DNA of 40,701 nucleotides. Origin: Leptolyngbya sp. DLM2.Bin15. GTDB lineage: Bacteria; Cyanobacteriota; Cyanobacteriia; RECH01. Location of the stretch: assembly GCA_007694125.1 (NCBI GenBank), contig RECH01000315.1:1-40701 (forward strand), given 5' to 3'. Numbering within the stretch: position 1 is the first letter of the stretch; each line of letters opens with the position of its first letter. Below, in pieces: positions 30,883-37,330 of the stretch. Below the pieces are notes generated by a model, which searched no databases, was not told where the DNA came from, and saw nothing but the letters and a program-made list of their open reading frames with translations. Made by a program: the position numbers and the translations under genes.

Positions 30883-32490
30883 GTGACTCTCCAAACCCAA
30901 CTTCCGCCAGACACCCAAGCCACTGAGCACATCACCCGCCAGATGATTGTGATCCTTGACTTTGGCTCACAGTATTCTGAACTTATCGCTCGACGAATTC
31001 GCGAAACCCAAGTCTATTCTGAAGTGCTTTCCTACCGCACCACGGTTGAGCAGCTCCAGCAACTCAATCCTAAGGGCATTATTCTGTCGGGTGGCCCCAG
31101 CTCCGTCTATGACGACAACGCTCCCCACTGCGATCCCAAGATCTGGGATCTGGGCATCCCTGTTCTAGGGGTGTGCTACGGTATGCAGCTAATGGTGCAG
31201 CAGTTGGGTGGCAGCGTTGAGCGGGCCCTGCGCGGTGAGTATGGCAAGGCATCACTCTACATCGATGATCCCACCGATCTACTCACCAACGTAGACGACG
31301 GCACCACCATGTGGATGAGCCATGGCGACTCCGTCAAGGCGTTGCCAGATGGCTTTGAGCTGCTCGCCCACACCGACAATACTCCCTGCGCGGCGATCGC
31401 CCACCATGAACGCAAGCTCTACGGCGTCCAGTTCCACCCCGAAGTGGTGCATTCCATTGGTGGTTTGGCGCTAATTCGCAACTTTGTCTATCACGTCTGC
31501 TGCTGCGAACCAACGTGGACCACCGAAGCGTTCGTAGAAGACGCCATTCGCGAAATCCGGGCCCGCATCGGCGACAAGCGGGTGCTGCTGGCGCTATCCG
31601 GCGGCGTTGATTCGTCTACCCTAGCGTTTTTGCTGCACCAGGCCATCGGGGATCAGCTCACCTGCATGTTCATCGACCAGGGCTTCATGCGCAAGTATGA
31701 GCCAGAGCGTCTCGTGAAATTGTTCCATGAACAGTTCCATATTCCGGTCGTCCATGTGCAGGCCCGCGATCGCTTCTTGGCGGTCATTGAAGGCATCACC
31801 GATCCTGAAGAAAAGCGCAAGCGCATTGGCCACGAGTTCATTCAGGTTTTTGAGGAAGAATCCAAGCGTCTTGGCCCCTTCGACTATCTTGCCCAAGGCA
31901 CCCTCTATCCTGATGTGATCGAATCAGCCGATACCAACGTCGATCCCAAGACTGGGGAACGGGTGGCGGTGAAGATCAAGAGCCACCACAACGTAGGCGG
32001 GCTGCCCAAAGATCTACGCTTTAAGCTCGTCGAGCCCCTGCGCAAACTGTTTAAAGACGAAGTGCGCAAAGTCGGGCTATCCATTGGCCTACCCGAAGAG
32101 ATTGTCAAACGCCATCCCTTCCCGGGCCCGGGTCTAGCCATTCGCATTCTGGGCGAAGTGACGGCAGAAAAACTGAGCATCCTGCGCGATGCTGATTTCA
32201 TCGTGCGGCAAGAGATCAACCAACGCGGTTTGTATAACGATTTCTGGCAAGCCTTCGCCGTGCTGCTGCCCATTCGCAGCGTTGGGGTGATGGGTGATCA
32301 ACGCACCTACGCCTACCCAATTGTGCTGCGCTGCGTTTCTAGCGAAGATGGCATGACGGCTGATTGGTCGCGCGCCCCCTACGATTTGCTGGAAGCAATT
32401 TCCACCAGGATTGTCAACGAAGTGAAGGGCGTCAATCGCGTTGTCTACGATATTACCTCCAAGCCCCCAGGCACCATCGAGTGGGAATAG
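30883..32490 (+). CDS. guaA: GMP synthase (glutamine-hydrolysing)
   Basis: GuaA amidates XMP to GMP using glutamine and ATP. The N-terminal class I glutamine amidotransferase domain has the nucleophile Cys in [18 protein letters not shown] and the His/Glu pair in [11 protein letters not shown]. The ATP pyrophosphatase domain has the P-loop [20 protein letters not shown] and the C-terminal dimerisation domain ends [17 protein letters not shown]. Length of 535 residues is usual for the family plus a short leader. The start is GTG at 30883 with AGGA at 30871-30874; a stop precedes it in frame and the ATG at 30861 is in another frame. It follows the TIR-WD40 gene by 286 bases, with no evidence of cotranscription. 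Confidence 0.97.
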
Positions 32491-32704
32491 GCAGGGCAGC
32501 GATCGCCCCTAGATAGAGTCCACCAACGACCCACAAAACTTGAACGAAACTTGAGGGAAACTGGATCAATCCAGCCCCTCAGATCGTCTACAATGGATCG
32601 CCGGGGTGCGATCGCTGGGTCTCCAGGTAAGACGACACTTCATCAGTGAGCAGGGCATGGGCTCAAGCAGCACTGCCACCCTCTAACTTCAATCATCATG
32701 TTGG

Positions 32705-32824
32705 TTTTCCACAAGTTTTCCACAGGTTTTTCCCAAGCGCCTGTGGAAAACTATGCCATTTCCTGTGGAAAACTCGCTTTTCCTGTGGAAAACCTGTGGA
32801 AAACCTCCGCGAAAATGTGGAGAA
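32705..32824. other. Cluster of six perfect DnaA boxes: probable replication origin (oriC)
   Basis: The 9-mer TTTTCCACA, the cyanobacterial form of the DnaA box, occurs on the plus strand at 32705-32713 and 32716-32724, and on the minus strand (TGTGGAAAA) at 32742-32750, 32764-32772, 32784-32792 and 32795-32803. A one-mismatch copy is at 32816-32824. Starts are 11, 26, 22, 20, 11 and 21 bases apart, mostly near multiples of a helical turn. The two groups point toward each other. A titration site such as datA is the main alternative. dnaA and dnaN are not in the window. Confidence 0.8.
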
Positions 32825-32958
32825 CTGTAATCATTGTTCAGGGACTCCTGAAGTCAGGATCACCTCAATCACGCCGGCGATCGCCTCAGACTGAACAGAA
32901 CTGCTGCCGTCGCAGTCAGCCCCATATCCTTCGAGCTGATCTACCGCGACCTCTTCTC

Positions 32959-32983
32959 CATCCTTCGACAGGCTCAGGATGAG
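32959..32983. repeat. Dispersed-repeat-like element with inverted ends
   Basis: The stretch 32961-32983 begins TCCTTCGACAGG and ends CTCAGGATGAG, with CATCCT (32959-32964) and AGGATG (32976-32981) as inverted ends. From memory, this sequence family recurs as a scattered repeat in many bacterial genomes. Only this full copy is seen in the window; CATCCTGAGC at 3979-3988 shares ten bases with its other strand. Confidence 0.4.
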
Positions 32984-33174
32984 ATGAGCGGAGATGCTTT
33001 TCCTCCTCATCAGCAACCAAGGACGGATCATTCAACACTGCGTCCTTCGATCCAGTGGGCTTGGGTTAACGATGAATTGCGCTTCATACTTCATCCCCCA
33101 TTCATCCCCCAACTCAATCATTTCTTCACAATCGCTCCCAACCATGGATCCGCAGAATTACCTTTGGCACGTTT

Positions 33175-33202
33175 TCTTACAACACGTAAGATGACAGTAA
33201 GA
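33175..33202 (+). promoter_or_regulatory. Hairpin and direct half-sites upstream of the hybrid kinase
   Basis: TCTTAC (33175-33180) and GTAAGA (33186-33191) form a perfect six-bp inverted repeat with a five-base loop. GTAAGA recurs at 33197-33202, exactly 11 bases after the first. Direct repeats at one helical turn are typical of OmpR-family binding sites. The site is about 70 bases before the kinase start codon, so autoregulation is possible but unproven. Confidence 0.35.
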
Positions 33203-33271
33203 ACCATTGTCATCCTCACCATTCTTTCTACGGTTATGGCTGAGCGCTGAAGCCCATTACTTTTTTCTCCC

Positions 33272-36200
33272 ATGTGCGGTTTAAGCTCCTCCAGCGGGCA
33301 GATCACCCTTGCGATTGCCCGCGATTTACCCTTGCTTTCTACAACAACAACCCTGGCTAAGGCGATCGCTGACATCGAACGGTTCCGGACATCTCACCAT
33401 GCCACGGTTACATCGTCAGCTTGCTGTGCCTTCGTGATGGAGCAAGACACCTTGGTAGGACTGGTGAGCGATCGCGATATTGTAGCCGCCTTAGCTGCAG
33501 GACGGATACCCGCCCAAACCCTCGTCGGCGAGATCATGGCACCTCCCCCGAGCCCCATCCCCTTGGCAGAGGTGACCCATCTTCCCAGCATCCTGTCCCA
33601 CCTACAGCAAGCAAACCGATGCTGTCTCCCAGTCATCGATCAGGGTCAGATCATCGGTTGTCTCAATACGACCCATATACTGCAAGTGCTTGGGCCCCAG
33701 CTCCTCTCCTCCCCACTCCCCTCTCAACCAATTCTTCTGGGTATTCCAGCCCCCTGCTCTCGCCTCCAAAACATGATCGCCACGAGTCCTGCGGTCATGT
33801 TTACCTGCCGCCCAGAGGAAGACTACAAAACCACCTTTGTCAGTGCCAACATCCAGGAACTGCTGGGATACTCGCCCCATACATTTGTCCAAGAGCCTAA
33901 CTTCTGGAGCGATCGCCTCCATCCTGACGATCGCGATCGCTTCCTCAGTGCCCTAGCGCTCTTGCCTACCCAGGGTGTTCAGCACCATGAATATCGTTTT
34001 TTGCATCACGACGGTCACTATGTCTGGCTCGGTAGCAGTTTGCGGATGGTGTTTGACAACCAAGGCAAGCCCGTCGAACTTGTGGGATATGTCATTGATA
34101 TCACGGAGCAAAAACACATTGAGCAGCGCCTGAGGCAGCAAGCGGCCCATCTCAGCGCCGCCCAACGCATCGCCAATCTAGGCAGTTGGGAATTTGATAT
34201 CCATACCGGAGCGATTACCTGGTCACCCCAAAGCTTTGTGGTCTTCGGCTTTGATGAAGCAGATGGCGAACCGACCCTAGAGCAGCTTGAGGCCCGCTTT
34301 AAACCAGAGGCCTGCCTGCAACACCGCCACGTGTTGGAACAGGCGATCGCCCAAGCAAGCTGCTATGAGCTAGAAATTGAATTTAACCGTCCCAATGGTT
34401 CCCTCGGCTGGGTGGCAGCTCGGGGAGAACCTATCTTTGATGCTAGCGGGCACCTCAGCCACTTCGTCGGCACAGTCCTGGATATCACCGATCGCAAACT
34501 TGCCGACCTGAAACGCAAGTGTAGCGAAGCTCGCTACCGCGCCGTCGTGGAAGACCAAATGGACTTAATTTGTCGTTTCTTGCCAGACGGTCGGCTCACC
34601 TTCGCCAACTATGCCTACTGTCAATACATCCAGGTTGATCCAGAGGCTGCCATCGGCCACTCTCTTGAGCAACTCGTGCCCTCCGAAGAATATGCCCGCC
34701 TCCAGCAACTCCTATCCCACCTGACCCCCGCAACACCGACCACCACCAACGAGCAAAAAACCTTCACAGCTAGCGGTGAAGAACGCTGGCAACTATGGAC
34801 GGATCGGGCCATGTTTGACGATCAAGGGCAGGTGATCGAGTATCAATCGGTGGGGCATGACATCACCGATCGCAAACGAATTGAACTAGCGCTGCAGCAA
34901 AGCGAAACCCGCTATCGAGCGATCGTGGAAGACCAAACGGAGATGATTTGCCGCTTTCGCCCCGATGGTTCCCTCAGTTTTGCCAACACCGCCTACCGTC
35001 GCTATTTCAACATAGACACCACCTTGCCAGATAAAAATGCCATCTGGCAATATATCCCTGATGACGAACTCGATTTTGTGCGCACGAAGGTGCTAGGTCT
35101 GACCCCAGAGGCCCCCACCGTGACCTATGAACACCGTGTCGAGCTTCCCGATGGCACAACGGCTTGGCAACTGTGGACAGATCGCGCCATTTTTGACGAC
35201 CAAGGTCAGCTCTTGGAATATCAATCCGCCGGACGCGATATTACCGATCGCAAGCACGATGAGCAGCAGTTGCGGCAGTTGTCAGAACGGTTAGCCCTAG
35301 CGCTCAAGTCCGGCGCGATCGGCATCTGGGAATGGGACTTGGTGCAGGATCATTTAGTCTGGGACGAGCAAATGTATCGCCTGCACGGGCGATCGCCTGA
35401 TGATCCTGTCCAAAGCGGAGCAGATTGGCAGCAAAGCCTTCACCCCGAGGATCGTCAAGCTACCGAAACCGTTCTAACGCAAGCGCTCCAGGGAGAGCAA
35501 GAGTTTGACGCTACCTTTCGAATTGTCTGGCCCGATGGCAGCCCACGCTTCATTAAAGCCTACGGGCAGGTGCAGCGCAGTCCCCAGGGGCAGCCCGTGC
35601 GCATGGTCGGCATTAACTTTGACATCACCAAACGGCAAGAAGCCCAGCAGCGCATCCAAGTTCAGAACGACCAGCTCAGCCGCGCCAATCTTGAATTAGA
35701 GCGGGCCACCCGCCTCAAGGATGAGTTCTTAGCCAGCATGAGCCATGAACTGCGCACCCCCCTCAACGCTATTTTGGGCATGTCGGAGGGGCTGCAGGAG
35801 GATGTATTTGGAGCGCTGAATCCTCGGCAGCAGAAGGCGATCGCCACCATTGAGCGCAGTGGGCAGCATTTACTGGAGCTGATTAACGATATTCTCGACC
35901 TATCCAAAATTGCAGCAGACAAGCTAGAACTTCAGCCTAGTCTTGTTTCTGTGAACACCCTTTGCCAGGCCAGCCTAGCCTTTGTGCAAGAATCGGCGCT
36001 GCGGAAGCACATTCACCTGGAGCATGACATCCGGGGGGTAGCATCCCTCTATGCCGATGAGCGGCGGCTGCGGCAGATTTTAATTAATTTACTCGTGAAT
36101 GCCGTCAAATTTACGCCGGAAGGTGGCCATGTCTCCCTCACGGTGAGCACAATCTTATCTAAGCAAGATCAGGAATCCTCCACCTCATTACAACCTGAGG

Positions 36201-37330
36201 TTGTTTTCTCCATTCGAGATACAGGCATCGGCATTGCGGAAAGCGATCGCAACAAACTCTTTCAACCCTTTGTACAAATTGACAGTGCTTTAAACCGGCA
36301 ACATGCTGGTACGGGGCTAGGGCTATCGCTGGTGAAACGGCTGGCAGAACTGCATGGGGGGCATATCTCGGTAGAAAGCAGCCTCGGTCAGGGGAGCTGC
36401 TTCTCCGTGCACATTCCTAGTATCATTGGCTGCCCCATACCTACTGTCACGGCCAAGGAAAACCTATCATCGGCTGCCGTTTGCCCCACCGCAGCCGTCC
36501 CCATCCCAAATGTACCATCGGTGCTGATTGTGGAAGATGCCGACGACGTGGCGGATCAAATCAAACGGTATTTGACAGAGCTAGGCATCCCATCAACGGT
36601 GTGCAGCCATGGCGAAAATGCGATCGCTCAAGCCACCCAGCTCATGCCATCGTTGATTATTCTAGACCTACTGCTGCCGGAGATCTCAGGGTGGGAGATT
36701 CTAACGCAGCTGAAGCATAATCCAGTGACAGCTCCCATTCCAGTCATCATCGCTTCAGTGGTAGATGAGCAAGGCCAAGGGTTAACATTAGGAGCAGAAG
36801 ACTACCTTGTGAAGCCGATTACCCGAGTCCATCTCCATGCGGCCATTCGCCGTCTGCAGCCATCACTGTTATCAGATCAAGGCTTGAGCGATCGCCTAAG
36901 TCCTACCATCATTACTCCCAACCATCATCCTGACGCTGTCATTCTCGTCGCCGAAGACAACCCAGCCAACATTGAGACGATCGCCGACTATCTCACCCTC
37001 AAGGGCTACCATCTCATTTATGCCCATAATGGGTATGAGGCCGTCAACCTGGCCCAAGTCCAAACACCAGACTTGATCCTCATGGATATTCAAATGCCTG
37101 GCTTGAGCGGGCTAGATGCCATTCATCGAATTCGGGCAACCGTTTCCCCAACCCTGCCCATTATTGCGATGACGGCTTTAGCCATGCCTGGCGATCGCGA
37201 TCGATGTCTCCTTGCAGGAGCCAACGATTACTTAACCAAGCCGATTCGGTTAAAGCTGATGTTAGAAGCGATTCAACAGCTTTTGCCACATCCTGAATGG
37301 GCGGCCCTCAGCACCCATCCAGAGCTCTAG
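33272..37330 (+). CDS. Hybrid sensor histidine kinase with CBS pair, five PAS domains and two receivers
   Basis: A 1352-residue protein, cytoplasmic by sequence (no membrane helix). Domains in order: two CBS motifs (about 20-145); PAS/PAC 1-5 (about 165-290, 295-412, 415-540, 542-665, 668-792), most ending in the DITxRK-type PAC signature; HisKA with the phosphorylatable His825 (ASMSHELRTPLNAILG); an HATPase domain with the N box around N943 and G boxes DTGIGI and GTGLGLSLV; receiver 1 with Asp1132 and Lys1181; receiver 2 with Asp1272 and Lys1323. The third and fourth PAS domains are near-duplicates (RYRAVVEDQ/RYRAIVEDQ and WQLWTDRA). The ligand is unknown; CBS domains suggest nucleotide sensing. 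A second kinase gene follows 72 bases downstream. Confidence 0.95.
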   Translation: MCGLSSSSGQITLAIARDLPLLSTTTTLAKAIADIERFRTSHHATVTSSACCAFVMEQDTLVGLVSDRDIVAALAAGRIPAQTLVGEIMAPPPSPIPLAEVTHLPSILSHLQQANRCCLPVIDQGQIIGCLNTTHILQVLGPQLLSSPLPSQPILLGIPAPCSRLQNMIATSPAVMFTCRPEEDYKTTFVSANIQELLGYSPHTFVQEPNFWSDRLHPDDRDRFLSALALLPTQGVQHHEYRFLHHDGHYVWLGSSLRMVFDNQGKPVELVGYVIDITEQKHIEQRLRQQAAHLSAAQRIANLGSWEFDIHTGAITWSPQSFVVFGFDEADGEPTLEQLEARFKPEACLQHRHVLEQAIAQASCYELEIEFNRPNGSLGWVAARGEPIFDASGHLSHFVGTVLDITDRKLADLKRKCSEARYRAVVEDQMDLICRFLPDGRLTFANYAYCQYIQVDPEAAIGHSLEQLVPSEEYARLQQLLSHLTPATPTTTNEQKTFTASGEERWQLWTDRAMFDDQGQVIEYQSVGHDITDRKRIELALQQSETRYRAIVEDQTEMICRFRPDGSLSFANTAYRRYFNIDTTLPDKNAIWQYIPDDELDFVRTKVLGLTPEAPTVTYEHRVELPDGTTAWQLWTDRAIFDDQGQLLEYQSAGRDITDRKHDEQQLRQLSERLALALKSGAIGIWEWDLVQDHLVWDEQMYRLHGRSPDDPVQSGADWQQSLHPEDRQATETVLTQALQGEQEFDATFRIVWPDGSPRFIKAYGQVQRSPQGQPVRMVGINFDITKRQEAQQRIQVQNDQLSRANLELERATRLKDEFLASMSHELRTPLNAILGMSEGLQEDVFGALNPRQQKAIATIERSGQHLLELINDILDLSKIAADKLELQPSLVSVNTLCQASLAFVQESALRKHIHLEHDIRGVASLYADERRLRQILINLLVNAVKFTPEGGHVSLTVSTILSKQDQESSTSLQPEVVFSIRDTGIGIAESDRNKLFQPFVQIDSALNRQHAGTGLGLSLVKRLAELHGGHISVESSLGQGSCFSVHIPSIIGCPIPTVTAKENLSSAAVCPTAAVPIPNVPSVLIVEDADDVADQIKRYLTELGIPSTVCSHGENAIAQATQLMPSLIILDLLLPEISGWEILTQLKHNPVTAPIPVIIASVVDEQGQGLTLGAEDYLVKPITRVHLHAAIRRLQPSLLSDQGLSDRLSPTIITPNHHPDAVILVAEDNPANIETIADYLTLKGYHLIYAHNGYEAVNLAQVQTPDLILMDIQMPGLSGLDAIHRIRATVSPTLPIIAMTALAMPGDRDRCLLAGANDYLTKPIRLKLMLEAIQQLLPHPEWAALSTHPEL

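Follow-up and report, generated by a model that had tools for sequence, protein, structure and literature searches.

We found that Leptolyngbya sp. DLM2.Bin15 carries, just downstream of guaA (encoding GMP synthase), a conserved array of DnaA boxes that is not the chromosomal origin. The array belongs to the general kind of DnaA-box cluster outside oriC, with several clustered boxes beyond chance. Its most probable role, favoured by us somewhat more than all other readings together, is that of a non-oriC chromosomal DnaA-binding array that limits DnaA availability, either by titration of the initiator or by datA-like inactivation. The window, i.e. the whole stretch of DNA analysed, comprises positions 1-40,701 (forward strand) of contig RECH01000315.1 (GCA_007694125.1), part of a 5.0-Mb draft genome in 384 contigs.

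Motif matching located six exact copies of TTTTCCACA and one copy with a single mismatch at 32705-32824 (Table 1), as the initial annotation had reported, and the strands it gave (boxes 1-2 forward, boxes 3-6 reverse) were found to be correct. It had described spacings of about 11, 20-22 and 26 bp; the measured start-to-start steps are 11, 26, 22, 20, 11 and 21 bp. The clustering is indeed beyond chance: the exact 9-mer occurs 7 times in the whole window (0.27 expected; no shuffle out of 100 gave as many) and the Poisson probability of at least six boxes in 120 bp is ~7e-23. Genome-wide there are 54 exact boxes (38 for a reversed-motif control), which form two clusters, the guaA-side array and a second one at C348:34303-34856 beside dnaN. 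The flanking genes named before, guaA and a hybrid kinase, were recovered by their Pfam domains; in the window's genus the array is followed by the kinase where other genomes have the cation-efflux gene.

Table 1. Features of the guaA-side DnaA-box array and its neighbours (positions in the window)
Feature	Position	Strand	Remarks
DnaA box 1 TTTTCCACA	32705..32713	+	exact match; 2-bp gap to box 2
DnaA box 2 TTTTCCACA	32716..32724	+	exact match
DnaA box 3 TTTTCCACA	32742..32750	-	exact; opens the conserved direct array found in other families
DnaA box 4 TTTTCCACA	32764..32772	-	exact; 22 bp after box 3
DnaA box 5 TTTTCCACA	32784..32792	-	exact; 20 bp after box 4; 2-bp gap to box 6
DnaA box 6 TTTTCCACA	32795..32803	-	exact match
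Degenerate box TTCTCCACA	32816..32824	-	one mismatch; mostly conserved in both congeners
Whole six-box array with spacers	32705..32803	.	97/99 columns identical in three congeneric genomes
guaA (GMP synthase)	30883..32490	+	Pfam PF00117, PF00958 (GATase and GMP_synt_C); upstream neighbour in at least 8 families
Hybrid histidine kinase	33272..37330	+	CBS, PAS, HisKA, HATPase and two receivers (Pfam)

The dense exact boxes had led the initial annotation to regard the array as the chromosomal origin, located away from dnaA and dnaN. This is not supported, and we give it almost no credence. A cluster beside dnaN that extends further, which the annotation itself had named as evidence against its proposal, is present in the same genome: the second cluster lies directly upstream of dnaN (identified by Pfam) and has 6 exact and at least five single-mismatch boxes over ~640 bp. 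Its layout, in which 53-54 bp and then 9 bp separate the end boxes, is common to this genome (G000) and the complete genomes G020 and G027, and similar layouts were found in G026, G021 and G007. The GC skew, which the annotation had proposed as a check and whose turning elsewhere it had also named as a refutation, was sampled by stretches in the window's genome; it is -0.072 on one side of the dnaN cluster and +0.040 on the other, and it keeps its sign across the guaA-side array (-0.070 left, -0.079 right). On the 325-kb contig of the congener G001 it is positive to the left and to the right of the corresponding array. In G020 and G027, analysed in 20-kb pieces, the cumulative skew reaches its minimum and turns upward at the dnaN/dnaA cluster, at position 0 in G020 and between 2.46 and 2.73 Mb in G027, whose cluster lies at 2.633 Mb; the guaA arrays of these genomes lie mid-arm, at 1.49 and 3.21 Mb. 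The origin of S. elongatus likewise maps near dnaN (PMC7198777). The stretch L051:10001-10643 (contig C348), upstream of dnaN and with the change of skew sign, is the probable true oriC of the window's genome. The dnaA gene is on another contig, and no box cluster was found at dnaA in this genome, which rules out autoregulation of the dnaA promoter as an explanation of the array.

A secondary or conditional origin at guaA is very unlikely as well. Some cyanobacteria fire from several origins (PMC7198777), the boxes do form a cluster, and we retain the idea on account of the very AT-rich 27-bp stretches (0.85-1.0) that directly follow the array in four other genomes (G020, L257; G027, L258; G021, L073; G026, L256) and resemble an unwinding element. 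However, the skew is unchanged at guaA in the window, in the G001 contig, in G020 and in G027, and an AT-rich flank is not general: the mean AT content of the flanks of 50 arrays is only 0.61 and 0.57. For single 27-mers the AT content peaks at 0.70 in the window and at 0.78 beside dnaN, and it reaches 1.0 next to certain guaA arrays in other genomes. The distance of the array from oriC varies: in G026 and G027 it is 0.10-0.11 of the genome length, in G020 0.32.

Relatives do have the same cluster beside guaA, for which the initial annotation had proposed to search; what is conserved is a non-origin array and not oriC. Two congeners (G001 and G002) share the six-box array; identity is 98% over its 99 bp and falls to 46-64% to the left of it and 41% to the right. 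Beyond the genus, arrays of at least three same-strand boxes about two helical turns apart follow guaA in no fewer than eight cyanobacterial families (verified beside guaA in f1, f6, f7, f18, f19, f24, f25 and f38; f15 was assigned to this class via an identical array sequence). The simpler form, found for instance in G020, G026, G027, G008, G009 and G021, has three boxes on one strand, 20-21 bp apart and 86-545 bp downstream of guaA, to which the window's genus adds two opposite boxes. In 50 unique arrays of this class the spacing is 20-22 bp in a search that allowed only 19-22 bp, and the unbiased set of 28 guaA loci agrees. The array is present in 9 of these 28 loci (3 to 6 exact boxes) and absent from 19. 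A genome of the same family as the window's (G003) has a guaA locus without the array; it carries a four-box array beside an NADH-dehydrogenase-like gene (L251, C128:12227-12294), perhaps a relocated copy.

We scanned 84,980 species genomes and 390 Cyanobacteriia genomes and found many further arrays among the matches listed; the reversed control pattern gave 0 matches in all 390 Cyanobacteriia genomes. According to tblastn, three-box arrays recur in three places: (a) at guaA and/or a cation-efflux gene (PF01545), (b) upstream of a gene encoding a DUF2811 protein (PF10929) and (c) at the dnaN-side origin. Two other cyanobacterial loci (L266 and L102) have a three-box array ahead of a sigma-factor gene.

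The association with the neighbouring genes is strict in orientation and loose in composition. Without exception in class (a), guaA lies upstream and runs in the direction of TGTGGAAAA, and the efflux gene lies downstream and is convergent. The array usually sits between the two convergent genes, always in the same orientation. It was kept where guaA is gone (Microcoleus-type and other loci; beside the efflux gene in f34, f43 and others), where the efflux gene is missing (among others in the window's genus), where hemJ is inserted between guaA and the array (L107 and L118) and where only the next gene remains (L090, L238 and L259). Since the site outlives either of its convergent neighbours, the array more likely acts on DnaA than on a gene, and we therefore chose the reading in which it is a sink for DnaA. 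The convergent neighbours disfavour a role as promoter, and a promoter of guaA or of the efflux gene was rejected on the position of the array, 3' of both in most genomes.

The array could instead be a local transcription device, in which DnaA on the oriented boxes forms a roadblock and so terminates transcripts of guaA or of its convergent neighbour; such a device may also link the purine supply to replication. We consider this unlikely, yet not negligible, and have retained it because the orientation relative to guaA is fixed (as it is relative to the efflux gene, in a convergent arrangement in most genomes) and because no intrinsic terminator was found in 32400-33400. Roadblock termination by DnaA and repression of the gua operon have been described in E. 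coli (PMC11317965, PMC8203912), although the E. coli guaB site was unbound in ChIP-seq (PMC11317965). Other observations fit this device poorly: the array persists after loss of guaA or of the efflux gene, the downstream gene in the window is not convergent, and most guaA genes lack the array.

That the boxes are DnaA boxes, as proposed in the initial annotation, is well supported by the use of the same 9-mer in the dnaN-side origin, by the pairs with a 2-bp gap and by the disappearance of paired boxes with dnaA. We regard it as highly improbable that another protein uses the motif, or that the motif belongs to a repeat element with a mere likeness to DnaA boxes. DnaA binding is deduced from sequence, and in the window's genus the opposed boxes (32703-32820) are calculated to fold into a strong hairpin as single-stranded DNA (-31 kcal/mol, z -6.4). 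Against these alternatives stand the shared 9-mer and the loss of paired boxes together with dnaA; most other families have only same-strand boxes, in which such a hairpin is impossible, and in an Rfam search at the array no family reached its gathering score. A riboswitch or RNA gene was rejected, the only matches being weak chance ones to animal and plant microRNA families, far below threshold.

A link to dnaA was examined in the 13 near-complete genomes without dnaA among the 390. Clusters of paired boxes occur in 0 of these 13 and in 13 of 13 dnaA-carrying relatives (P ~2e-7, kinship ignored), the relatives being drawn from three of the same families, with families f36 and f42 having no comparison genome; same-genus contrasts are available in g84, g88 and g147. 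One dnaA-less genome has an unrelated 21-bp tandem repeat and no genuine paired-box cluster. Because the guaA-side array is already absent from the tested dnaA-carrying relatives in these families, the comparison bears on paired-box clusters generally and not on the guaA copy. It supports DnaA as the keeper of paired-box clusters in general.

The preferred reading, a sink for DnaA, would work as follows. DnaA would bind the boxes cooperatively and head-to-tail, same-strand boxes two turns apart presenting one face of the helix. Paired boxes with 2-3 bp between them are bound by E. coli DnaA, which prefers a gap of 2 bp (PMC11317965), the gap of boxes 1-2 and 5-6 in the window. The array would thus be maintained for DnaA binding and not as an origin, and would lower the supply of DnaA to oriC through titration, which may or may not be accompanied by stimulated ATP hydrolysis of the kind known from E. 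coli datA; titration of DnaA on the chromosome is known from E. coli (PMC12371093). Withdrawal of DnaA would, on this hypothesis, restrain and time initiation at the dnaN-side origin. The patchiness of the array, absent from most guaA loci, and its variable distance from oriC argue against such a role, and a DnaA sink would be idle in those cyanobacteria that replicate without needing DnaA (PMC7198777).

Another observation concerns DUF2811, a small cyanobacterial protein that tracks the presence of dnaA across the 390 Cyanobacteriia genomes. Its gene is absent from 10 of the 13 near-complete dnaA-less genomes and decayed in an eleventh, versus only 2 absences in 323 dnaA-carrying genomes (Fisher P ~4e-15, kinship ignored). 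One of these two, in the window's genome, is explained by a gap in the assembly, as contigs C342 and C183 both stop at this spot; a true loss of the DUF2811 array there was therefore rejected. A direct array of DnaA boxes precedes the gene in ~30 loci (e.g. L128, L201 and L253). The structure model of the protein is of low confidence (pLDDT 69), neither a significant fold match in the PDB nor a significant sequence match was found, and no mention of DUF2811 was found in open-licence papers. The protein may be a partner or target of DnaA. A cyanobacterial DnaA-control circuit, in which the guaA-locus and DUF2811 arrays set the amount of free or active DnaA and the DUF2811 protein is a partner or regulator lost once dnaA is lost, is conceivable and rather doubtful.

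In the full text of open-licence papers we found no description of non-oriC DnaA-box arrays in cyanobacteria. The array bears on how DnaA is kept in check in polyploid cyanobacteria and on why some do without it, and with a conserved, precisely placed site of ~100 bp the question of DnaA restraint becomes experimentally accessible. For the prediction of origins it implies that, in draft cyanobacterial genomes, oriC is not necessarily where the boxes are most tightly clustered.

With the cyanobacterial oriC beside dnaN (S. elongatus type) the guaA-side array shares the 9-mer and, in the window, dense boxes on both strands, whereas it lacks dnaN, a change in skew and a consistent AT-rich region and has another layout. 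The core of three boxes outside oriC is reminiscent of DARS1 and DARS2 of E. coli; in DARS, however, box I points the other way from boxes II and III (PMC5742627), and the conserved guaA-side three all share one direction, so the DARS core layout is not seen. Bacillus subtilis has DnaA-box clusters (DBCs), and Streptomyces an analogous cluster, that are thought to lower free DnaA (PMC5295017, PMC5742627) and that are, like the guaA-side array, extra clusters outside oriC, but they differ in phylum, box sequence and neighbours, and the cyanobacterial array is not always near oriC. Finally, datA of E. coli is also a non-coding DnaA-box cluster away from oriC, and its essential boxes share one direction (PMC5742627), as do the conserved three here; the datA boxes are set around an IHF site, whereas those of the guaA-side array lie 20-22 bp apart.
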